DNA from: Vicinamibacteria bacterium
GTDB taxonomy: Bacteria; Acidobacteriota; Vicinamibacteria; Fen-336
Assembly: GCA_016934575.1 (NCBI GenBank)
Contig: JAFGSN010000183.1
Span: 1-58,389, forward strand
Reading direction: 5' to 3'
Length of the DNA: 58,389 bases
Shown here: positions 2,587 to 33,801 of the stretch, piece by piece
Layout: every line of letters begins with the position of its first letter
How positions within the stretch are numbered: position 1 is the first letter of the stretch
The notes under the pieces: generated by a model
Told to the model about the DNA's origin: nothing
The model's input: only the letters and a program-made list of their open reading frames with translations
The model's database searches: none
Made by a program: the position numbers and the translations under genes

Positions 2587-3786
2587 CTACGCGAGGGAAC
2601 GCAGCGCCTGCGCCTGCGTCCAGACGCCGGGAATCGCGGCGCCGCAATCCGGGCATTTGCCGTTCTTGATGGTGTTGGCCAGGATTCTGTACCCGGCGCG
2701 ACGAATCACGACCTTCCGGCACTGGTGGCAGTGGGTGTTCTCGCCCGGGTGCATGGGAACGTTGCCGGCATAGACATAGCGAACTCCGGACTCGAGCGCG
2801 ATCTCGCGGCAGCGATCGAGAGTCGATACCGGCGTTTTTGGCAGGTTCGTCATTCTGTACGTGGGATGAAAACGCGTGAAATGCAGCGGCACATTCGGCC
2901 CCAGCTTCTCCGCCACCCAGCGGCTCATCCGTCGGATCTCCTCCCGGGAATCGTTCAATGTGGGGATGATCAGAACGACGATCTCGAACCAGATCCCGAC
3001 GTCCTTGAGGATCTCGAGCGTTTTCAGAACCGGCGCCAGCTCTCCGCTGCACTGATTCTTGTAAAACGATTCCGTGAACGCCTTGAGATCGATCTTGACT
3101 CCGGTGAGCTGTCGGCAGAGCTCTCGCAGCGGCTTTTCCTGGATGTAGCCGTTGGAGATCATCACGCTGCCAACGCCCCGCTTGCGCGCCAGAGCCGCTG
3201 AATCGCGCATGTACTCGTAGAAGATGACCGGCTCGGAGTACGTGTACGCAATCGTCGGAGTTTTGTCGGCCAGGCAGGCCGTGACGAGTCTTTCGGGAGG
3301 AACGAGAACGCTTTTCACCTGTTCCGGCCGAAACTGACTGATCTGCCAGTTCTGGCAGAACTTGCACTCGATATTGCATCCGGCGGTGGCGACCGAAAGA
3401 GCCGTTGTTCCAGGCAGGTAGTGAAACAGCGGCTTTTTCTCGATGGGGTCCGTATTGGCGGAGCACAGAGCGCCATAGACCAGCGTTTGATATTTTCCGC
3501 CCTGATTCTCCCGCACTCCGCAATAGCCGCGTTCCACGTCGGCGACCTCGCACTCGCGCGGACAGAGAACGCACTTGATCTTTTTGTCCGGCAACGACTC
3601 CCAGAACACGGCCGGATGCCGTGCAACGCCGTCGAGTGCGGGACCGGTCAGATTGCCGCGTCCGGCGATGTCCTGAGAGAAACCGCGCCGCCGGCCTCCC
3701 GGCCACACCGCCGTGCCGCACGCGGCGACGCTCCATCGCAGCAGATCTCGCCGCGACGGAAACCGGTTCTTGCGATCGACGGACAT
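2587..3786 (-). CDS. amrS: AmmeMemoRadiSam-system radical SAM enzyme with Tat signal
   Basis: The 399-residue protein has the radical SAM triad Cys137, Cys141 and Cys144 (CNIECKFC). A Cys-rich lead-in (CVLCPRECEV, GYCGVREN) and a C-terminal zinc-ribbon-like segment (HCHQC...CPDC) are typical of the AmrS family, formerly annotated as pyruvate formate-lyase activating enzyme-like. The N-terminus SRRDLLRW followed by a hydrophobic stretch is a good twin-arginine signal, implying export of a folded Fe-S protein. The start lies three bases after the stop of the DUF362 gene, so the two are an operon. The usual partners AMMECR1 and MEMO are not in the window. The substrate of the family is not established. 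Confidence 0.88.
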   Translation of the reverse strand: MSVDRKNRFPSRRDLLRWSVAACGTAVWPGGRRRGFSQDIAGRGNLTGPALDGVARHPAVFWESLPDKKIKCVLCPRECEVADVERGYCGVRENQGGKYQTLVYGALCSANTDPIEKKPLFHYLPGTTALSVATAGCNIECKFCQNWQISQFRPEQVKSVLVPPERLVTACLADKTPTIAYTYSEPVIFYEYMRDSAALARKRGVGSVMISNGYIQEKPLRELCRQLTGVKIDLKAFTESFYKNQCSGELAPVLKTLEILKDVGIWFEIVVLIIPTLNDSREEIRRMSRWVAEKLGPNVPLHFTRFHPTYRMTNLPKTPVSTLDRCREIALESGVRYVYAGNVPMHPGENTHCHQCRKVVIRRAGYRILANTIKNGKCPDCGAAIPGVWTQAQALRSLA

Positions 3787-3789
3787 CGA

Positions 3790-4803
3790 CTACACCTCGA
3801 TTCGCTCGATCTTGCCGATATCGGACTCTCCGAGCCCGCGCGCGCCGGCCGTGGCGATGTGACGCGGCGGGCGGCGTTCGTCGGCAAGGGCTCTGAGTCC
3901 TCTGGACATGCGCTGCTCCTCGATGATGCCGGCCGCGACGGCGTCGGCGGCCACGAAATCGGCGCTGATGACTAGGCCCCCGAAAGCCCAGAGATACGCC
4001 GCGCTCCGTCCAGGTCCGTTGTGGAACTGGGCGCGGGTTCCGTCACAGACCGTGAGGCGCCATCTGGGCGCGATGAACCGATGCGAGACGACGTCGACGA
4101 TGTAGGGATCGCAGTTGTCGTCATGATATTTATTGGGATTGTGAATCGCGCCGTAGAAGTTTTTCATCCCCAGCGATACGCCGGCCAGATTGTGATCCTT
4201 GAGCACCGGCACGCAGATCAACGCATCCACCTCTTCGGCGACGATGCGCGAGAAACACGAACCGACGCTTCCGCTGACCTCCACGCCATCCTGGTACCCC
4301 GAGCCGGCGCGCGACGCGTCGGTGCCGCGGCACTTGACTCCCGGACCCGACCGGTTGAGCCTGAATCCCGCCCGTTCCAACTCCACGTCGAACCGGTCCC
4401 AGACGATGATGTCTTGATCGCGGACTCCGGCTTGTTGGAGTCCGTCCACGACGGCGGACACCACGGCCGGATTGGTGGATAGTCCCAAAGTGTTGACCTT
4501 GACGCCCACTCGATCGCCCGGCCTGAACATTCGCTTCCACGCGCTCGCCGCGTTCGAAGAGGATGTCAACCTCTGCATGGAAGCGTCGAGCAGCTTCTGG
4601 AGTCTTTCCCGGTGTCGATCGGCGGATTCACGAGTCAACGCCTCATCCCGCGCGATGATGACTCGTGGCGCGACTCGCTTGCGTGACAGCTCGTCGGCGC
4701 GGCCGCCGCTCTCGGCAAGAAACGACGGCGTCGTGACGGCCATGCCGGCCGCCGCCGCGCCAAGCCTGGCCAGCAACTCCCGTCTTGTGCCTTCCTGAGC
4801 CAT
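3790..4803 (-). CDS. DUF362 family protein with Tat signal
   Basis: From the ATG at 4803 (preceded by GGAGA) the protein is 337 residues. It begins with TRRELL and an Ala-rich hydrophobic segment, a twin-arginine signal. The body has DUF362 hallmarks: GVKVNTLG near residue 100, a central LICVPVLKDHN stretch and SLGMKNFYGAIHNP. An upstream in-frame start at 4854 exists but would bury the signal peptide, so I prefer 4803. It is first in an operon with the Tat-bearing radical SAM enzyme. DUF362 proteins often sit with iron-sulfur or radical chemistry, but their role is unknown. No ferredoxin domain is fused here. Confidence 0.85.
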   Translation of the reverse strand: MAQEGTRRELLARLGAAAAGMAVTTPSFLAESGGRADELSRKRVAPRVIIARDEALTRESADRHRERLQKLLDASMQRLTSSSNAASAWKRMFRPGDRVGVKVNTLGLSTNPAVVSAVVDGLQQAGVRDQDIIVWDRFDVELERAGFRLNRSGPGVKCRGTDASRAGSGYQDGVEVSGSVGSCFSRIVAEEVDALICVPVLKDHNLAGVSLGMKNFYGAIHNPNKYHDDNCDPYIVDVVSHRFIAPRWRLTVCDGTRAQFHNGPGRSAAYLWAFGGLVISADFVAADAVAAGIIEEQRMSRGLRALADERRPPRHIATAGARGLGESDIGKIERIEV

Positions 4804-23741: not shown

Positions 23742-25448
23742 TCACGGAAGGCGGCGTTCGCGAGACCGATCGGTTGAAGCGTTCCCGTTCGTCGGGGGGG
23801 ACGTGCTCTGACGCAATCCGTGGATCTCGTGAATCTCCATCATGCCGATGCCTTTCAGGCGGATCTGGCCGAGCGATGCGCCCTCGCAAACGTCGGCGAC
23901 CTGCGACCATGTCGTCGCGCTCACGTTGACGAAGCCGTTGTGGCCGTGGCTCTCGACGCGCGCCGCGGTGTTGACGGTGTCGCCCCAAAGATCGAAGAGA
24001 TACTGGCGGTGTCCGACGACGCCGGCGGTGACCGGACCGACGTGAATGCCGACGCGCACGTCCCAACCGGCGGGCAGGCTTCGCGCGGAAGCGACCATGT
24101 CGAGACCGCAACGCACGGCGTTCAGCGCCGGCCGCGCGACCGGGCGGATCGCTCCCGCCGTGGCCATGAAAGCGTCGCCGATGGTCTTGATCTTCTGCAT
24201 CTCGTGTTGGATGGAGATCTCTTCAAAAGCCTCGACGAGCTGCTGCAGATGGCGGACGACCTCGTCGGGTTCGCGGCTTGCGCAAAACGGGGTGAAACCG
24301 ACGACGTCGCAGAAAAGCACGGCGACATTCTCGTAGCGTTTGGGCTTGACGGCGTTCGTGGCCTTGAGCTCTTCGACGATCTCGTGAGGCAGAATGACGT
24401 GAAGCAGCTCGTCGGCGCGCCGTCGCTGTTCCTCGATCATGCGGAGATGCAGGACCTCCCGGTCGCGCAGCCGCTTCTTCTCGATGCAGGCTCCGATGCG
24501 CGCCCGCAGCAACACGGGATTGAAGGGTTTGGGGAGATAGTCCTCGGCGCCTCCTTCGATGCAGCGCACCACGCTATCCAGCTCGTCAAGAGCCGAGATC
24601 ATGATCACCGGAACGTGCCGGAGAGCCTCGTCCGCCTTGAGTCGCCGCAATACCTCGTAGCCGTTCATCTCGGGCATGATCACGTCGAGGAGAACGAGAT
24701 CAAGGCCGCCCCGTGCGACCATTTCGAGGGCCTGGCGGCCGTTTGATGCCGTGGCCGTCTGGTATCCCTCGCGCATCAGGCGCCGTGCAAGCATGTCGCG
24801 GTTGATTTCGTTGTCGTCGACGACGAGAATCGACCCGGAGGCCGCCGCCTGGACGGCGTTCTCTCCGGACGAGGTCGGATGGAGGGCGCTGACGACGTCC
24901 TCGATCATGCCGGCCACCGCCGTATCCGCCTTTGGAAAGTCGTTCGTCCGCGTTTCCATCGCCGAGAAGCGCACGATGTCGTCGATGAGCATGAGCAGCT
25001 TTGCGCCGGCGGAACGGATGCGCTCGAGATCGGCGGTCATCGCCGCTGCGTTTGATCCGGCGACGTCCTCGATCAGCATCTCGCTGTAGCCGATCACGGC
25101 GTTGACCGGCGTGAGGAGATCGTGACGCGCGCGGGCGCCCATGGCCTCGATGTCGACGCCCTCACGTTCGAGCTGCTCCGGATCGAGCAGCTCATTGATG
25201 AGTTTGAGCAAGCTCTCGCCGGCGCGGTGGATGCGCTCGAGGTCGTCGACCGTCTCGCATCCGCTCGCGCGAGCGTCTTCGATCAGCATCTCGCTGTAGC
25301 CGAGAATGGCGTTGACGGGCGTTCGAAGCTCATGGCGCATGTGCGCCAGAAACGCGGCGCGCTCGAGACGCGGCTTTTCGCCATCATCCGGCCTCGAACC
25401 GGCTTGGGATTCCGCTTTCGGGACGGCGTTTGTTTCCTTCTCCGTCAA
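23742..25448 (-). CDS. Double-HisKA, receiver and class III adenylate cyclase protein
   Basis: The 568-residue cytosolic signalling protein has two near-identical HisKA segments (His39 in HMRHELRTPVNAILGYSEMLIED, His109 in RHDLLTPVNAVIGYSEMLIED). There is no ATPase (HATPase_c) domain. A receiver with Asp255 (LVLLDVIMPEMNG) and a class III cyclase follow. The cyclase has both metal aspartates (Asp381, Asp425), the adenine-selecting Lys421 (KTIGDA) and Asp486 (FDLWGD), and the Asn493/Arg497 pair, so cAMP is expected. It starts with TTG overlapping the stop of the upstream receiver gene (TTGA). The kinase that phosphorylates it must be another protein. Confidence 0.85.
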   Translation of the reverse strand: MTEKETNAVPKAESQAGSRPDDGEKPRLERAAFLAHMRHELRTPVNAILGYSEMLIEDARASGCETVDDLERIHRAGESLLKLINELLDPEQLEREGVDIEAMGARARHDLLTPVNAVIGYSEMLIEDVAGSNAAAMTADLERIRSAGAKLLMLIDDIVRFSAMETRTNDFPKADTAVAGMIEDVVSALHPTSSGENAVQAAASGSILVVDDNEINRDMLARRLMREGYQTATASNGRQALEMVARGGLDLVLLDVIMPEMNGYEVLRRLKADEALRHVPVIMISALDELDSVVRCIEGGAEDYLPKPFNPVLLRARIGACIEKKRLRDREVLHLRMIEEQRRRADELLHVILPHEIVEELKATNAVKPKRYENVAVLFCDVVGFTPFCASREPDEVVRHLQQLVEAFEEISIQHEMQKIKTIGDAFMATAGAIRPVARPALNAVRCGLDMVASARSLPAGWDVRVGIHVGPVTAGVVGHRQYLFDLWGDTVNTAARVESHGHNGFVNVSATTWSQVADVCEGASLGQIRLKGIGMMEIHEIHGLRQSTSPPTNGNASTDRSRERRLP

Positions 25449-26270: not shown

Positions 26271-27428
26271 TCAAGCGGCGGCCTCGCGGACGCTTTCCAG
26301 GAGCACTTCGATGCCTTTCTCGAGGATCGGGTCGCCGCTCGATTCCGTCTCGCTCTCGTCCCCCTGAGGGGAATCGACCGGAACGCTCGGCTCTATGCCC
26401 TCTCCATGAATCGGCTTGCCGTTGAGGCGCAAGTAATGCGCGACAGTGAGTCTCAGGGCGCCCCGTTCGAGCGGAATCGTCTTCTGGGCGGCGGCGCGGC
26501 CGAACGTGCGCCGCCCGACAAGTTTCGCGCGTCCCGAGTCGAGCAGCGCCGCGGCGAGAATCTCGCCGGCGCCGGCCGTGCCGGCGTCGATCAGGACCGT
26601 CAGCGGAAGCCGCCACTCCGGTCGTATCGCTCCGGTGGCGAGAACCTCTTCGCCGGCGGTGCGTCCGGAGAGGCGCGCCACGGCGCCTTCCATGAAGAGC
26701 GCCGCGATCTTGGCCGCCTCCTGAGGTTTGCCGTGGGCCGCGCCGCGAAGATCGAGCACGAGCTTGTTTGCTCCGTCTCTCTTGAGAGCCGTGATTTCCA
26801 CGACAGCGAGATCGTCCGTCCCGGCGGTTAACTCCGGAATCTTGAGGTATCCGACAGACTGCTCACACATGCGGCTCGTTGGAACGGCGCGCGCGATCTT
26901 CTCGCGCACGATCGCAAAATTGAGAGGATCGGTGCCGGAACGGAAAACGGCGAGCTTGACCAGGGAGCCCGGCGACCCCCGAAGCATGCTCTCGCCGATG
27001 GGCACGCTCACGGCATGCGTGTGCTTTCCGTCGATCGTTTTGATGATGTCTCCGGATCGTAAGCCGGCGCGATCCGCCGGAGAATCGGCCCGCGCGGCGA
27101 CGACCATGAGAAATCCGAAGCGCCGCGTCAATACGGCGCCGATTTCGCCTTCCTCGGACGGCTGCTTGAGCGCCGCGAGGTCCGCGTCGGACAGGAAGGA
27201 GCTGTCTCCGTCGAGCGCCTCCGTGAGGCCGAGCTGGGCGCCGTTCATGGTGCGCTCCATGTCCACCGGCTCGACGTACGCGTTGAGAACGATGTGCAGG
27301 ACCTCGTTGAAGAGAGCCAACTGAGTATAGGCGCTGTCTCCCAGGACCATTCCGAGCCAACCTAGAGACACATACGCCGCCAGGAGCGCCGAGATCAGAG
27401 CGACGATCAGATGTCCGCGCGCACTCAT
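26271..27428 (-). CDS. S41-family (CtpA-like) pseudoprotease
   Basis: The 385-residue protein has an N-terminal membrane or signal segment (7-28), a linker, a PDZ domain (about 90-165; GFLMVVAARADSPADRAGLRSGDIIKTIDG) and an S41 domain (about 190-350). In CtpA and Prc the catalytic residues are Ser in SASASEI and Lys in TFGKG, 25 residues apart. Here they are Gly286 (GTAGAGEI) and Arg311 (TFGRAAAQ) with the same spacing. Both catalytic residues are gone although the surrounding fold sequence is good. It starts seven bases after the EnvC-like gene, the usual EnvC-CtpA arrangement. I infer a binding or regulatory role at the cell envelope. Confidence 0.8.
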   Translation of the reverse strand: MSARGHLIVALISALLAAYVSLGWLGMVLGDSAYTQLALFNEVLHIVLNAYVEPVDMERTMNGAQLGLTEALDGDSSFLSDADLAALKQPSEEGEIGAVLTRRFGFLMVVAARADSPADRAGLRSGDIIKTIDGKHTHAVSVPIGESMLRGSPGSLVKLAVFRSGTDPLNFAIVREKIARAVPTSRMCEQSVGYLKIPELTAGTDDLAVVEITALKRDGANKLVLDLRGAAHGKPQEAAKIAALFMEGAVARLSGRTAGEEVLATGAIRPEWRLPLTVLIDAGTAGAGEILAAALLDSGRAKLVGRRTFGRAAAQKTIPLERGALRLTVAHYLRLNGKPIHGEGIEPSVPVDSPQGDESETESSGDPILEKGIEVLLESVREAAA

Positions 27429-27435
27429 GAAATCA

Positions 27436-28578
27436 TTATAAGTGACTTCTTCGAAGCCAGTCCATCGGGTTCTCGGGCTTGCCCTGGAAGCGCATCTCGA
27501 AATACAGACCCGGCCCCTGCAAGCCGGCGCCGACCGATCCCACGACCTGTCCGGCGGTGACTTGGTCGCCCACGCGGACGTTCGCGTCGGACAACCGGCC
27601 GTAAAGCGACAGGTGGCGGCCGCCGTGATCGATAACGACCAGCAAGCCGTAGCCCAGCAGTCGATCGGAGAAGACGACCGTGCCGTCATGCACGGCGGTC
27701 ACGGCCGCGTCGGGCGCGGCCTCGATTTCGATGCCGTTCTGAATCGTATAGGTGGAGAACCTGGGATGCTTGCGACGGCCGAACGGCACGCGTACGCGTC
27801 CGGTCACCGGCCACGGAAGCGAGCCCTTGAAGACCGAGACGGGCACGCTCACGGGCCCTTCTTCGAAGCCCGAGAGAAGTTGCCGCAGCCTCTGCTCGGC
27901 TTCGGACAGCTCGTCCAGGAAGGCGTCGTTTGTCTCTCTGCTCGCCACGATGTCTCTCAGGAAACTCCGCTTGGCGATGCGCTCGGCGTTGAGCCGTTGA
28001 CGCTGCGATCTGGTCTCGATCCGTAACGATTGGACATCCTGCGTTCTGCGAACAAGCTCTTCGCGCGTATCGTTCAGCGCCTTGAGATCCCGGCGAAATT
28101 TCGCGATCCGTTCGTTGTCCTTGCGCGCCAGCGCCGTGACGTATCGGAAGCCCTCGAGGATCGCCGCGGGACGTTCGACCGAGAGCAGCAGGCGCAGATA
28201 CGAAAGACGTCCGAGCTTGTAGAGCGCGCGTGCGCGCGCGACGACGAGCGGTCGCGCCTGATCGAGATCGCTCTCGATTTCACGGACTCGCCGCAAGGTG
28301 CGATCAAGATCCAGATTGGCGCGCTCGAAAACGAGCCGCAGCTCGCGCAATTCCGTTCCACGCAACCGAACCGCGAGGTCCAGGCGCTCGATCTCGCGCA
28401 ACAGGCCTTTCTCCTCGTTTTGCAGGCGATTGATTTCGTTTTCCAGCGCGATCCGACGCTGCTTGACCTTCTCGATCCTCGCGTCGATCGAAGCGACCAG
28501 GGAAGCGGGCGGAGCTTTCTGCGAGCCGTCGGACGGCGCGGCGGCGGCAAGCATCAATGTGATCGCCGCGACGCTCAA
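27436..28578 (-). CDS. envC: EnvC-like murein hydrolase activator (coiled coil plus LytM domain)
   Basis: The 380-residue secreted protein has a signal peptide (VAAITLMLAAAAP), long coiled coils (residues about 25-225) and a C-terminal M23/LytM domain. The LytM metal ligands are replaced: the position that is H-x-x-x-D in active M23 enzymes reads NGIEIEA, and the HxH position reads LYF (GLYFEMR), as in E. coli EnvC. So it should activate amidases and not cut peptidoglycan. The TTG start overlaps the stop of the upstream DUF3108 gene (TTGA) and has GGAGG five bases upstream. Confidence 0.88.
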   Translation of the reverse strand: MSVAAITLMLAAAAPSDGSQKAPPASLVASIDARIEKVKQRRIALENEINRLQNEEKGLLREIERLDLAVRLRGTELRELRLVFERANLDLDRTLRRVREIESDLDQARPLVVARARALYKLGRLSYLRLLLSVERPAAILEGFRYVTALARKDNERIAKFRRDLKALNDTREELVRRTQDVQSLRIETRSQRQRLNAERIAKRSFLRDIVASRETNDAFLDELSEAEQRLRQLLSGFEEGPVSVPVSVFKGSLPWPVTGRVRVPFGRRKHPRFSTYTIQNGIEIEAAPDAAVTAVHDGTVVFSDRLLGYGLLVVIDHGGRHLSLYGRLSDANVRVGDQVTAGQVVGSVGAGLQGPGLYFEMRFQGKPENPMDWLRRSHL

Positions 28579-29372
28579 GACGCCTCCTCGTCCATGCGGG
28601 CCGGCGGAACGTAGCTTTCGAGGTCTGCGGACACCGAGCCGATTGGGATTTTCGAGCGCATGCGCACGGGAATCCGCCGATGATCGTCCGTGAGCCAGAT
28701 CTTGAGATTTCCCTTGCGAACGAAGAGGCCCGAGCCTTCCATGAGCGTCGGTTCCACGATCACCGTCGGGCAGCGTTTTCCCAGAGGCGACGGGAGATCG
28801 AGCCGTTCGCGGCCCAGGAACCGCACGGCGAGCTGATAGCGTCTCCCGTTGTCGAAGACCGACAGGGTGAGCGGCGAGGATTCCGGGACGCCCCGGACGC
28901 GCGTGACGAAGAAGGCCGACAGCACGTCGAGCGTGCAGGGCGGCAGCTCGAATCGGGACTCGCTGATCTTGCGGTCTTCGACGCGCGTGGCGCCGCTTTC
29001 GGGGTCAATCCTGACGACCTGATCCCGTTTCGCGCGTCCTTCCCGCAAGTGTTTTTCGATTCCCAGAGAGCAGCCCGATTTCGGTTCCCAGGTCGCCACC
29101 GTGCGATCGCGCACGCGGAAGCGGTAGAACCGCGGGAAGAATCCTTCAGTCCAGGCCTGGGCGATGAGATTCCAGACCGGACGACCTTCTCGTTCCGCGG
29201 CTTCCACGCTCATGCGCGCCCGTCCGGCGAGGATATGCGCGCATGTGATCTTCATCTGGATGATCTCGCCTGGTCCGAACGGCGGCTCCGTCGCGCCGGT
29301 CTGCTGCGTCGGCGCCAGCGTTGCCGCCAGGATCACGGCGGCGCACGGACAGGCGGCTCGGAGCGGCCGCAC
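28575..29372 (-). CDS. DUF3108 domain-containing envelope protein
   Basis: From the GTG at 29372 the protein is 265 residues with a signal-peptide-like start (AACPCAAVILAATLAP). The body carries the DUF3108 pattern: FRVRDRTVATWEPKSGCS, ESRFELPPCTLDVLSAFFVTR, LTLSVFDNGRRYQLAV and WLTDDHRRIPVRMRSKIPIGSVSADLESY. The frame stays open to 29777, but upstream residues are Arg-rich and not protein-like. It overlaps envC by four bases. Probable periplasmic protein of unknown role. Confidence 0.8.
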   Translation of the reverse strand: MRPLRAACPCAAVILAATLAPTQQTGATEPPFGPGEIIQMKITCAHILAGRARMSVEAAEREGRPVWNLIAQAWTEGFFPRFYRFRVRDRTVATWEPKSGCSLGIEKHLREGRAKRDQVVRIDPESGATRVEDRKISESRFELPPCTLDVLSAFFVTRVRGVPESSPLTLSVFDNGRRYQLAVRFLGRERLDLPSPLGKRCPTVIVEPTLMEGSGLFVRKGNLKIWLTDDHRRIPVRMRSKIPIGSVSADLESYVPPARMDEEAS

Positions 29373-29512
29373 ATCAGCGCCATCTCGCTCGGATTTTCTC
29401 GCGATGGAAGCCTTGTGCGGGCGACGGTTGGGAGAAGGCGCGTCTTTCGCCTGACCGAGTTGGGCGCGAGTTGCGCGCCGTTCCGTCCAGGATCTCGCGA
29501 GATTGGACAACA

Positions 29513-30157
29513 CTAGTCCTTGCGTGAGTGAAATCGGAAACGCCGCCCGCGTCGAGATCCGGAGGATGCTCCCGGCTCCGTGTCCGGCGTCGCGTCCTCC
29601 GCCTGCTCGACGTCCGATTCGCTGGACTCGTTCGTGGGTTCGAGCGCGCGTTTTTCGGTTTGCATCAGATCGATTTGCTCGTGGAGATGCGTCAGTCGCA
29701 ACGATGCGGAGAGTGCGATGCCCGCCATGGCACGGAGCGGTTCTGTCGTTCCCGATGGAATTCCGGCGAAGGCGCATGGATGCGATGAGGCGAGGACGGC
29801 TATGGCGCGCGGGTCCTTCGCGGTTGTCAGCGGGAGCATCAGGAGCGAACGCAGCCCTCGTTTCAGAAGCAGCGCGCGCGTTTGGGGAAAACGCGTGGCG
29901 TCGGGTATGTCGTCGAACCTCAAGACGCGATCATGGCTCAGGACATGATCCAGCGCGTCGTCCGCGGCCAGGCTTTCGGACGGGGCGATCATGGGCAGGC
30001 GGCGCGTTGTCCCTTCCAGCGCAAGGATGATCTCTCCCGCCTCGGCTCGCATATGCGCCGGCAGCACCTCCAGCAAGCGCTGCGCCAAGGTCGCGCCCCC
30101 ATCGGGCTCGATCGCGTCGGCCAGTCGTAGTAGCTTCCGGGCAATCTCCGAAATCAT
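29513..30157 (-). CDS. GAF-domain protein
   Basis: The 214-residue protein reads MISEIARKLLRLADAIE, then a GAF-like region (residues 25-160; RFDDIPDATRFPQTRALLLKRGLRSLLMLPL, VLASSHPCAF), then a low-complexity charged tail of about 45 residues (RALEPTNESSESDVEQAEDA, ending RFRFHSRKD). No output domain follows, so the ligand and target are unknown. The start is the ATG at 30157, very near an extended -10 box. Confidence 0.65.
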   Translation of the reverse strand: MISEIARKLLRLADAIEPDGGATLAQRLLEVLPAHMRAEAGEIILALEGTTRRLPMIAPSESLAADDALDHVLSHDRVLRFDDIPDATRFPQTRALLLKRGLRSLLMLPLTTAKDPRAIAVLASSHPCAFAGIPSGTTEPLRAMAGIALSASLRLTHLHEQIDLMQTEKRALEPTNESSESDVEQAEDATPDTEPGASSGSRRGRRFRFHSRKD

Positions 30158-31139: not shown

Positions 31140-32189
31140 TCATGTGACGTATTTCCCGCCGCGCTTCATGGCCGCCGCCATCTCGGATGGATTCATTCGG
31201 TGGAGCAAGGAGATCTCGTTGATCGTGCGCACTCCGGGCCGAGCGACGAGCAGCTTGGGCAGGCAATTCATGGCGATCGCGGCCGTGGCGGCGTCGCCGC
31301 CGATGCCGCCGGCGATCGTCACGTCGAGAGGCGGCGCGCCGTCGACCAGGATGTGGTCCCGCGGCGCTTCCGCGCCGACGTAGAGTTGAAGATCAAGGCT
31401 GACGATCAGCTCTCCCTTGCGGTAGGCGCGCGCATATTGCTTGATTCCGGAGACGGCGCCGGCGGGAACCCGTATCTGCTCGGTGTCGAGATCGCGCGGC
31501 GCGATGACGGGCTCGATCGTCTCGTCGATGCGGTCCAGCTTCCATCCGAGCGTATGGGCGATCATGTGCGTCGACTGCAGCAGTCCGACGTGGCGGACGT
31601 TGCCCTCGGCGAGCGCGCGACGGAACTGATGGACGCTGAGACCGGCGCCCGCCTTGCGCTGCAACGATCGCCGTCGCGCCGCGAGATCGACGACGCGCGT
31701 CGCCGAGATTCGGCGCACCTCGCTGCACGGGGCGGTGAGCATGAGCGGCAGGGCGTCCATGGCGAAACCGGGATTGACTCCCGTCGAGAGCAACGTCACC
31801 TTCTTGGCGCGCGCCTCCCGATCCAGCGTCTTGAACGCCGCCTGGTTTCCGGGAATGGGATAAGCCAGCTCCTCGCAGGTCGTGACGACGTGCAAGCCTT
31901 TTTTGATCAGCTTGATCAGGAGCTCCTTGCACTCCGAGAGAGACGAGCTTGTCGCCAGGATCGCGACGTCCGCCCGGAGCTTGGAGAGCCGGCGATCCAT
32001 GTCATCACGGACACGGATCCGCAGTCGTCTGGGAAGTCCGAGAACCTCGCCCAAGTCCTTGCCGGCTCGATCGGGCGAAAGATCCGCGGCCGAAACGATC
32101 GTTATGCCCGGGGTTTCGAGCGCCAGCCGGGCGATCGCCTGGCCGATCGGGCCGAGGCCGAAGTGCGCACAACGCAAAGCGCGCCCCAT
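31140..32189 (-). CDS. DapB-fold dehydrogenase, 2,4-diaminopentanoate dehydrogenase-like
   Basis: The 349-residue protein has an N-terminal NAD(P) fold (FGLGPIGQAIARLALETPGITIVSAADLSPDRAGKDLGEVLGL). It matches the Ord/DapB-like family (ATSSSLSECKELLIKLIKKG, EELAYPIPGNQAAF, STGVNPGFAMDALPLML). A central substrate-binding domain with QSTHMIAHTLGW follows. Ord oxidises 2,4-diaminopentanoate in ornithine fermentation; here the neighbour is a lysine 6-transaminase, so the natural substrate could be a cyclic imine from lysine. It starts 12 bases after the small protein gene of the same operon. Confidence 0.8.
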   Translation of the reverse strand: MGRALRCAHFGLGPIGQAIARLALETPGITIVSAADLSPDRAGKDLGEVLGLPRRLRIRVRDDMDRRLSKLRADVAILATSSSLSECKELLIKLIKKGLHVVTTCEELAYPIPGNQAAFKTLDREARAKKVTLLSTGVNPGFAMDALPLMLTAPCSEVRRISATRVVDLAARRRSLQRKAGAGLSVHQFRRALAEGNVRHVGLLQSTHMIAHTLGWKLDRIDETIEPVIAPRDLDTEQIRVPAGAVSGIKQYARAYRKGELIVSLDLQLYVGAEAPRDHILVDGAPPLDVTIAGGIGGDAATAAIAMNCLPKLLVARPGVRTINEISLLHRMNPSEMAAAMKRGGKYVT

Positions 32190-32201: not shown

Positions 32202-32417
32202 TTAGCGCTCCACGTCCAGAGAAGGCATCTCCTCGATAGCGTCAGCGGCGAGAATCACGGTCGATGCGATCGGCAGCAGGCCCGTGTATTGCCGTCCTCC
32301 GGATTCAAGCGTGATCTCGTAATATCCTTCAGGCGCCACGCGCACGAGACGTCCGCGGGCGCCCTTGGCTCCCAGAACATCGCTATAGATCTTGACCGGC
32401 GCTTCGCGTTCGATCAT
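32202..32417 (-). CDS. Small conserved-looking protein in the lysine transaminase operon
   Basis: The 71-residue acidic protein begins MIEREAPVKIYSDVLG. It has a beta-rich core (GRLVRVAPEGYYEITLESGGRQYTGLLPI), possibly an SH3-like barrel. It overlaps the end of the transaminase gene by 35 bases and precedes the dehydrogenase gene by 12, the tight packing of a real operon gene. No known family assigned. Confidence 0.6.
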   Translation of the reverse strand: MIEREAPVKIYSDVLGAKGARGRLVRVAPEGYYEITLESGGRQYTGLLPIASTVILAADAIEEMPSLDVER

Positions 32418-33801
32418 CGCTTACCCCCAAGAGCTGCTTCAGGCTCGTTCTCACGATTTCCAGCCCGTGATCCGCCTCCGCCGCGCTCAAGTTGAGGGGC
32501 GGACGGAATCGAATGGAACATACGCCGCATCCAACGGCCAGCAAGCCGTTTCTGACGAGGGCCGCTTGAGTCTTCGCTCTCAGCTCGGCCGAAGGAAGAT
32601 CGAAAGCGACCATGAGGCCGCGACCGCGCGCGTTCGACATCAAGCCGCCCGTGTCGCGCTCGATTTCCCGCAAACCCGCGAGCAGACGCTCGCCGACGAC
32701 GCGGGCGTTGTCGACGAGGAGATCTTCATCGATGATTTCGAGATAGCGCGTAAAACGCACCATGTCCGTGAGATTCCCGCCGAATGTCGACCCCAACCGC
32801 GACGGGACGCGGAAGACGTTCTCCGGTTCCTCGTCGACTCTTGGCCCGACGAGGCAGCCGGCAATCTGAGCTTTCTTCCCGAAAGCGAGCGCATCCGGCC
32901 GGAGGCCGAAGTGCTCGTGAGCCCAGAAGCGCCCTGTTAGGCCGACGCCGGTCTGAACCTCGTCGACGATGAAAAAACAGTCGTTCTCGCGGCATTTTTG
33001 TTCGACGGCGCGCAGGAACTCGCCGCGGAAATGGTTGTCTCCGCCTTCGCCCTGGATCGGCTCGACGATCACGGCCGCGATGTCCGGCGCGAGCTCGGCG
33101 AAGGCGCGTTCGATCTGCTCGATGGCGCGTCTCTCGGCAGCCTTCGTCCCGATTTCGTTTTCGGGCGTGACCGGGAAGCGCTGCTTGGGATTGTCGATAC
33201 GCGGCCAATCGAACTTGGGAAAGCCGTCGGTCTTGACGGGATCGGTGTTCGTCAAGGACAGCGTGTAGCCCGTGCGTCCATGGAAGGCTTCGCGGAGGTG
33301 GACGATCCGTGAGCCGAGAGCCGCGCCCGCGCCGCTGGCGCGGTTGCGGCGCACTTTCCAGTCCATGGCCGTCTTTAGCGCGTTTTCCACGCCCAACGCT
33401 CCGCCCTCGAGGAAAAAAGCATGCTTGAAATATGAAGGCACGGCAAGCCGGCGAAAGGTCTCGACGAAATGCGCGTACTCCGGAGCATGGAAGTCGGATA
33501 GAGACGGCTTGATGCGCGCGACGCGTCGCAGCGTCTCCTGGAATGTGGAATCGTGTAATTTTGGATGATTGTAGCCGACGGGGCTCGATGCGAAGAATGT
33601 AAAAAAGTCCAGGTACTCCCGGCCGGTGCGTGCGTCCACCAGCCATGATCCGTGGCTTCGGTCGTGGTCAAAGACTTGCTCGAAACCGTCTGTAAGCGCC
33701 AGCCGTCCGACAACCGAACGAACGGCGCCGGGATCGATGGAGAACCATCCCGATGGGTGTCGCAGGGAGCGATCATTGCGATTGTGATTGTCGAATCCCA
33801 T
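32383..33801 (-). CDS. lat: L-lysine 6-transaminase
   Basis: The 472-residue PLP enzyme transfers the epsilon-amino group of lysine to 2-oxoglutarate, giving 2-aminoadipate semialdehyde, which cyclises to piperideine-6-carboxylate. The Lat-type motifs are YLDFFTFFASSPVGYNHPK, KPSLSDFHAPEYA, FFLEGGALGVENALKTAMDWK, HGRTGYTLSLTNTDP, IVEPIQGEGGDNHFR, VDEVQTGVGLTGRFWAHEHFG and the PLP lysine in AFGKKAQIAG. The gene starts the operon and overlaps the small protein gene by 35 bases. Confidence 0.92.
   Translation of the reverse strand: MGFDNHNRNDRSLRHPSGWFSIDPGAVRSVVGRLALTDGFEQVFDHDRSHGSWLVDARTGREYLDFFTFFASSPVGYNHPKLHDSTFQETLRRVARIKPSLSDFHAPEYAHFVETFRRLAVPSYFKHAFFLEGGALGVENALKTAMDWKVRRNRASGAGAALGSRIVHLREAFHGRTGYTLSLTNTDPVKTDGFPKFDWPRIDNPKQRFPVTPENEIGTKAAERRAIEQIERAFAELAPDIAAVIVEPIQGEGGDNHFRGEFLRAVEQKCRENDCFFIVDEVQTGVGLTGRFWAHEHFGLRPDALAFGKKAQIAGCLVGPRVDEEPENVFRVPSRLGSTFGGNLTDMVRFTRYLEIIDEDLLVDNARVVGERLLAGLREIERDTGGLMSNARGRGLMVAFDLPSAELRAKTQAALVRNGLLAVGCGVCSIRFRPPLNLSAAEADHGLEIVRTSLKQLLGVSDDRTRSAGQDL

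Follow-up and report, generated by a model that had tools for sequence, protein, structure and literature searches.

A CtpA-type pseudoprotease without the Ser-Lys dyad, encoded behind EnvC in Acidobacteriota

The stretch of DNA analyzed here, the window, covers 58,389 nucleotides of a Vicinamibacteria bacterium contig (JAFGSN010000183.1, assembly GCA_016934575.1). On its minus strand, a CtpA-type S41 protein is encoded directly behind an EnvC-type protein, and a preliminary description of the sequence regarded both as catalytically dead. This locus raises the question of what a CtpA that does not cut could do beside a murein hydrolase activator, and whether the loss of its catalytic residues is shared by its relatives.

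The pseudo-CtpA ORF (26271-27428, minus strand) is intact and encodes 385 aa, as judged by ORF, domain, alignment, and model evidence. The protein showed the full CtpA domain order, with an N-terminal helix (residues 3-23), dimerisation-type helices (residues 32-72), a PDZ domain (about residues 95-166), the S41 core (residues 192-350), and a C-terminal helix ending in EAAA (residues 367-384). PDZ and Peptidase_S41 both exceeded the Pfam cut-offs (S41: 107.5 bits). The score for the NCBIfam prc model (TIGR00225) was 173.9 bits and did not reach its cut-off of 218.6 bits, but the Pfam thresholds were passed by far, so a Pfam-based pipeline would call this protein an S41 peptidase. The nearest solved relative by sequence was Pseudomonas aeruginosa CtpA (7rpq, E 2.8e-48). 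The AlphaFold2 model had a mean pLDDT of 83 and a pTM of 0.78, and Foldseek matched it to the P. aeruginosa and Helicobacter pylori CtpA structures with TM values up to 0.88 (H. pylori). By Foldseek E, the best match was chain B of the complex that P. aeruginosa CtpA forms with LbcA. The model was closer to this chain and to the H. pylori resting structures than to chain A, which is possibly a property of the predictor and was not counted as functional evidence.

Alignment to 7rpq placed Gly286 (codon 26571-26573, minus strand; motif GTAGAGE) on the catalytic Ser302 and Arg311 (codon 26496-26498, minus strand; motif TFGRAAAQ) on the catalytic Lys327, with a spacing of 25 residues. The preliminary description had placed Gly and Arg at these positions with exactly the spacing of active CtpA, and the alignment bears this out. 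In P. aeruginosa CtpA, S302A and K327A each abolish activity (PMC11021448). Gln315 was retained, and the oxyanion-type NPGG motif after DLR was missing, the protein reading DLRGAAHG. Two further positions were replaced, namely the equivalents of His84, which aids catalysis in P. aeruginosa CtpA, and of the PDZ-hinge Phe of H. pylori CtpA (PMC11021448, PMC12749690). Both were also changed in the two Acidobacteriota lineages that still carry Ser and Lys (family f34 and gp11), so these changes alone are no sign of inactivity. A substitute dyad, which would have counted against the earlier claim, was likewise sought: column statistics over 94 pseudo members gave no conserved Ser/Thr/Cys and Lys/His pair.

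The loss was common to the orthologues. Of 120 short S41 proteins inspected in about 60 Acidobacteriota families, all of them EnvC-linked or orthologous, 116 had no Ser-Lys dyad, which rules out chance or a sequencing error as the cause of the loss. These 120 proteins comprise 106 short S41 proteins, 12 more divergent EnvC-linked S41 proteins, and two gp11 records. In the class sample of 60 genomes, an S41 match was found in all and a short orthologue in about 57; three genomes (G006, G013, and G042) had the longer S41 type only, and none of the aligned short orthologues had Ser and Lys together. Further short S41 proteins came from the phylum sample of 198 genomes, and with these, Ser and Lys were present in 2 of the 106, both from f34 (the broken copy of G003 was left out). 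All 12 divergent proteins lacked the pair, and both gp11 records retained it. Among the 116 proteins without the dyad, two still had Lys, with Gly (G116) or Asn (G071) in place of Ser. The EnvC-linked CtpAs found in Pseudomonadota were all Ser-Lys-Gln, bar one truncated match.

Some single loci deserve mention in their own right. The gp11 (L173, L174) and f34 (L115, L129) proteins are Acidobacteriota short CtpAs with Ser-Lys-Gln and a KAA-type tail, and are natural comparators. The reading frame of the G003 orthologue (L035:5422-6809) is interrupted by a shift around residues 196-210, and the locus contains masked sequence or Ns; this copy is either a relic or an assembly problem. In two Chloroflexota loci (L196 and L197, S41 genes near 3309-4469), Ser was kept, with Asn at the Lys and Ala at the Gln position, possibly a separate lineage in which CtpA is inactive or altered.

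The residue pattern in the 94 pseudo members was uneven. The Ser position held Gly in 79 and Ser in 3, and the Lys position held Arg in 41, the rest being scattered (L, M, A, Q, S, E, V, D, W, T). In the NPGG motif, the leading Gly was present in 15/15 actives vs 25/94 pseudo members. Gln315 was retained in 82% of them; D226, E289, and G310 never varied, and R228 and G305 hardly did. The substrate-sensing residues known from the PDZ domains of CtpB and H. pylori CtpA are Arg168/162 and Phe105 (PMC11021448, PMC12749690). The PDZ Arg (position 150) was retained in 54 of the 94 and the Phe hinge was lost; as these residues are only partly kept, peptide binding by the PDZ may differ from that of CtpB and H. 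pylori CtpA.

In a maximum-likelihood tree, built after removal of the catalytic columns, the Acidobacteriota short S41 proteins formed one group (SH-aLRT 100) with both Ser-Lys lineages nested inside. Dyad presence or absence required three changes on this tree. A single loss was rejected by constraining all pseudo members to one clade (AU p 0.0002), a result qualified by the quick tree search, the long branches, and the use of the trait itself to define the constrained group. The dyad was probably lost more than once, with regain formally possible on these sequences. Close pairs of pseudo-CtpA gave dN/dS values of 0.08-0.39, similar to EnvC, which indicates that the gene is maintained. The intact orthologues together with these values rule out a pseudogene. 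Judged by sequence, the protein is a maintained non-catalytic pseudoprotease whose loss is common to orthologues under purifying selection.

The S41 gene lies in a tight run on the minus strand. The EnvC-type murein hydrolase activator (27436-28578, 380 aa) precedes it with a gap of 7 nt, and the TTG start of EnvC overlaps by 4 nt the stop of an upstream DUF3108 gene (28575-29777, the ORF being taken from the first start codon, with the true start possibly further inside). The neighbour is EnvC-type, with coiled-coil helices at residues 25-133 and 137-237 (about 25-237) followed by a degenerate LytM domain at about residues 250-377; its score for the NCBIfam EnvC model was 122 bits, below the cut-off of 270. 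Its metal ligands are gone, as the preliminary description had stated: QNGIEI and LYFEMR stand where HxxxD and HxH would be expected. Its treatment of this as a second anomaly was rejected: in Lysobacteraceae and Oleispira, the EnvC proteins encoded next to an active CtpA also lacked the ligands, and the LytM domain of E. coli EnvC is degenerate (PMC10268282). Ligand loss is usual in EnvC, so the EnvC half of the finding is ordinary.

The order S41 after EnvC was found phylum-wide, and EnvC lay directly upstream of S41 in most EnvC-carrying families. Downstream of S41 came YibQ/SddA (Pfam PF04748), a TPR protein, or thrS, and about 15 Acidobacteriota families other than this one had the order EnvC-S41-YibQ; in this window, yibQ was not next to S41. 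In many families mltG and ruvX were near EnvC-S41, including mltG/ruvX-EnvC-S41-thrS loci, and E. coli Prc has MltG among its substrates (PMC7481392). In P. aeruginosa, envC and ctpA are followed by the sddA/yibQ orthologue PA5135, and the active CtpA degrades cell-wall hydrolases (PMC12569750). The Acidobacteriota locus is thus the positional counterpart of the Pseudomonas envC-ctpA-sddA operon. A large TPR protein was observed 3' of S41 at L099:4123-6111 (plus strand), with equivalents in f28, f36, f52, f55, f58, f60, and f67, and belongs to the same protein class as LbcA, the adaptor of P. aeruginosa CtpA.

With the Acidobacteriota EnvC profile, full-length EnvC was found in most families. 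About 19 families with pseudo-CtpA gave only partial matches, mainly to LytM (E about 1e-20 to 1e-36); these include near-complete genomes, and the absence, which in draft genomes may be only apparent, recurred within families. Conversely, families f14, f33, f35, f37, and f70 had EnvC without a short S41 gene beside it. EnvC and pseudo-CtpA are tied by location and not by strict co-occurrence.

Two other observations concern the window around this run. A protein at 23742-25448 (minus strand) combines two HisKA domains, a response-regulator receiver, and an adenylate/guanylate cyclase catalytic domain, and Pfam found no kinase ATPase domain in it. A 2,4-diaminopentanoate-dehydrogenase-like gene (31140-32189, minus strand) adjoins an L-lysine 6-transaminase gene (32383-33801, minus strand; above the NCBIfam cut-off), and the pair possibly belongs to a lysine-derived pathway.

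The rest of the genome contains a second, active-type CtpA, for which the preliminary description had asked: the paralogue L001 (G000:C243) has Ser, Lys, and Gln intact. It shares only about 32% identity with the pseudo-CtpA, and the two differ in length and lie at separate loci. A tricorn-like S41 protein (L003) was also present. Adjoining FtsE and FtsX genes were found, with one FtsX extracellular-domain match, together with two Amidase_3 proteins. By eye, both amidases have an extra stretch between the SIHAN/SLHAN and PFxVL motifs, which by its sequence may be likened to the regulatory insert of EnvC-activated amidases. With FtsEX, EnvC, and two amidases encoded, the components of an FtsEX-EnvC-amidase pathway are present.

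The C-terminus of the protein (EAAA and stop, 26271-26285, minus strand) is a variant of a conserved [K/R]xAA-COOH tail. An AA end was found in 70 of 109 S41 proteins vs 0 of 185 neighbouring-family genes (Fisher p 9e-40, relatedness ignored). Among the AA-ending tails, 26 were KKAA and most others [K/R]xAA or KAAA. The KKAA-type tail occurred in 33 of 50 families, including the Ser-Lys-bearing f34 and gp11 members; it was missing in some lineages, and none of the examined CtpAs from Pseudomonadota had it. Nonpolar C termini are the ligands of CTP PDZ domains. The PDZ of CtpB binds a Val-Pro-Ala end, and this binding is enough to switch the enzyme into its active conformation, even in a Ser mutant (PMC3808539). 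By analogy with this ligand preference and conformational response, a role of the tail as a self- or partner-ligand is plausible.

We consider it about an even chance (roughly 0.5) that the protein is a non-cutting, PDZ-based oligomeric binder, orthologous to envC-linked CtpA, which acts on the regulation of peptidoglycan hydrolases. Fold, dyad loss, residue conservation, dN/dS, loci, and tail are all consistent with such a binder, while the incomplete retention of the PDZ sensing residues and the lineages that lack a KKAA tail weigh against it. An envC-linked CtpA orthologue without proteolysis would be an envelope-located, oligomeric PDZ-binding protein. It would reside at the membrane or in the periplasm and would assemble as a dimer or hexamer. 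Peptidoglycan hydrolases, or the proteins that regulate them, might be bound by their C-terminal tails in its PDZ and substrate tunnel without being cut, and this binding might hold or gate them at division sites. The KKAA-type C-terminus could serve as a PDZ ligand, either within the protein's own oligomer or towards the active CtpA paralogue. A more specific form of the idea is tentative: the protein may have been converted, more than once, into a ligand-gated non-cutting switch, in which its own KKAA-type tail or hydrolase tails in the PDZ would toggle the resting/active change of CtpA as a signal.

Two other roles are conceivable, and we regard both as rather doubtful. The protein could be a regulatory subunit of active CtpA, tuning the proteolysis of cell-wall enzymes through mixed dimers or hexamers with L001 or through competition for its adaptor. 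An active-type paralogue in the same genome and an LbcA-class TPR protein directly downstream in about seven families are in line with this, but the low identity to L001, the unequal lengths, and the lack of a shared locus argue against it. Equally, it could be devoted to EnvC, positioning EnvC, FtsEX, and the amidases as a scaffold or co-activator, in the sense of the scaffolding or amidase-activating complex suggested in the preliminary description. For this role speak the 7-nt gap, the directly upstream EnvC of most EnvC-carrying families, the FtsEX and amidase genes, and the finding that SddA, encoded beside this pair in other lineages, modulates how amidases are activated in E. coli (PMC12440217). 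Part of that proposal stands, since a conserved pseudoprotease does sit in a tight operon with EnvC in a genome encoding FtsEX and two amidases. As the whole story it fails: with many pseudo-CtpA lineages in which no EnvC was detected (about 19 families without a full-length match), a scaffold for EnvC only cannot be the whole function, and the five families in which EnvC has no short S41 gene nearby also weigh against it.

Two readings that would do without a binding role are far less probable than the binder. A peptidase of altered chemistry, using another nucleophile and base, is very improbable. The Ser kept in 3 of 94 pseudo members, the mostly kept Gln315, and a conserved Thr284 two residues ahead of the Ser position would fit it; however, the Thr284 position is Ser/Thr in active CtpAs as well, no nucleophile and Lys/His pair is conserved, the Lys position is variable, the oxyanion motif is lost, and the single substitutions S302A and K327A already kill P. 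aeruginosa CtpA (PMC11021448). Least probable of all, and largely refuted, is a decaying relic of an active CtpA. The broken G003 copy and the 3 of 60 sampled genomes without a short copy could be read in this way, but it is contradicted by full-length intact ORFs throughout Acidobacteriota and by dN/dS values that stay well under 1.

If these proteins are binders, the envC-ctpA operon would have a protease-independent role, which may be hidden in active CtpAs such as that of Pseudomonas. Pfam-based annotation will label these proteins S41 peptidases throughout the phylum, where cutting is almost certainly absent. The coexistence of natural families with and without the dyad makes it possible to tell apart what CTP proteases do in cell-wall control as scaffolds and as proteases. 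Among the open-licence papers searched, none described an S41/CtpA pseudoprotease, and a phylum-wide dead CtpA is apparently undescribed there. It is nevertheless a case of a known kind, the pseudoproteases, and no new kind of system.

Compared with known systems, the protein is most similar to P. aeruginosa CtpA in operon position behind envC, domain order, fold, and closest structure by sequence. P. aeruginosa CtpA has an active Ser302-Lys327 dyad and is activated by LbcA, whereas the Acidobacteriota protein has Gly and Arg and has lost the NPGG motif, the His84 equivalent, and the Phe hinge. H. pylori CtpA and Bacillus subtilis CtpB share the PDZ-gated S41 fold but are active proteases with about 26-27% identity to it. 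The EnvC neighbour resembles E. coli EnvC in its coiled coil, degenerate LytM domain, and the FtsEX and amidases of its genome, and differs in scoring below the NCBIfam EnvC cut-off and in being co-encoded with a dead CtpA. MamO and CspC are likewise bacterial protease folds without catalysis which gained binding or regulatory roles (PMC4794232, PMC6636752), although they belong to other protease families. In the Agrobacterium envC operon, Atu2773, an SddA homologue without zinc ligands (PMC12440217), is also a retained, catalytically dead enzyme, in that case a deacetylase and not a protease.
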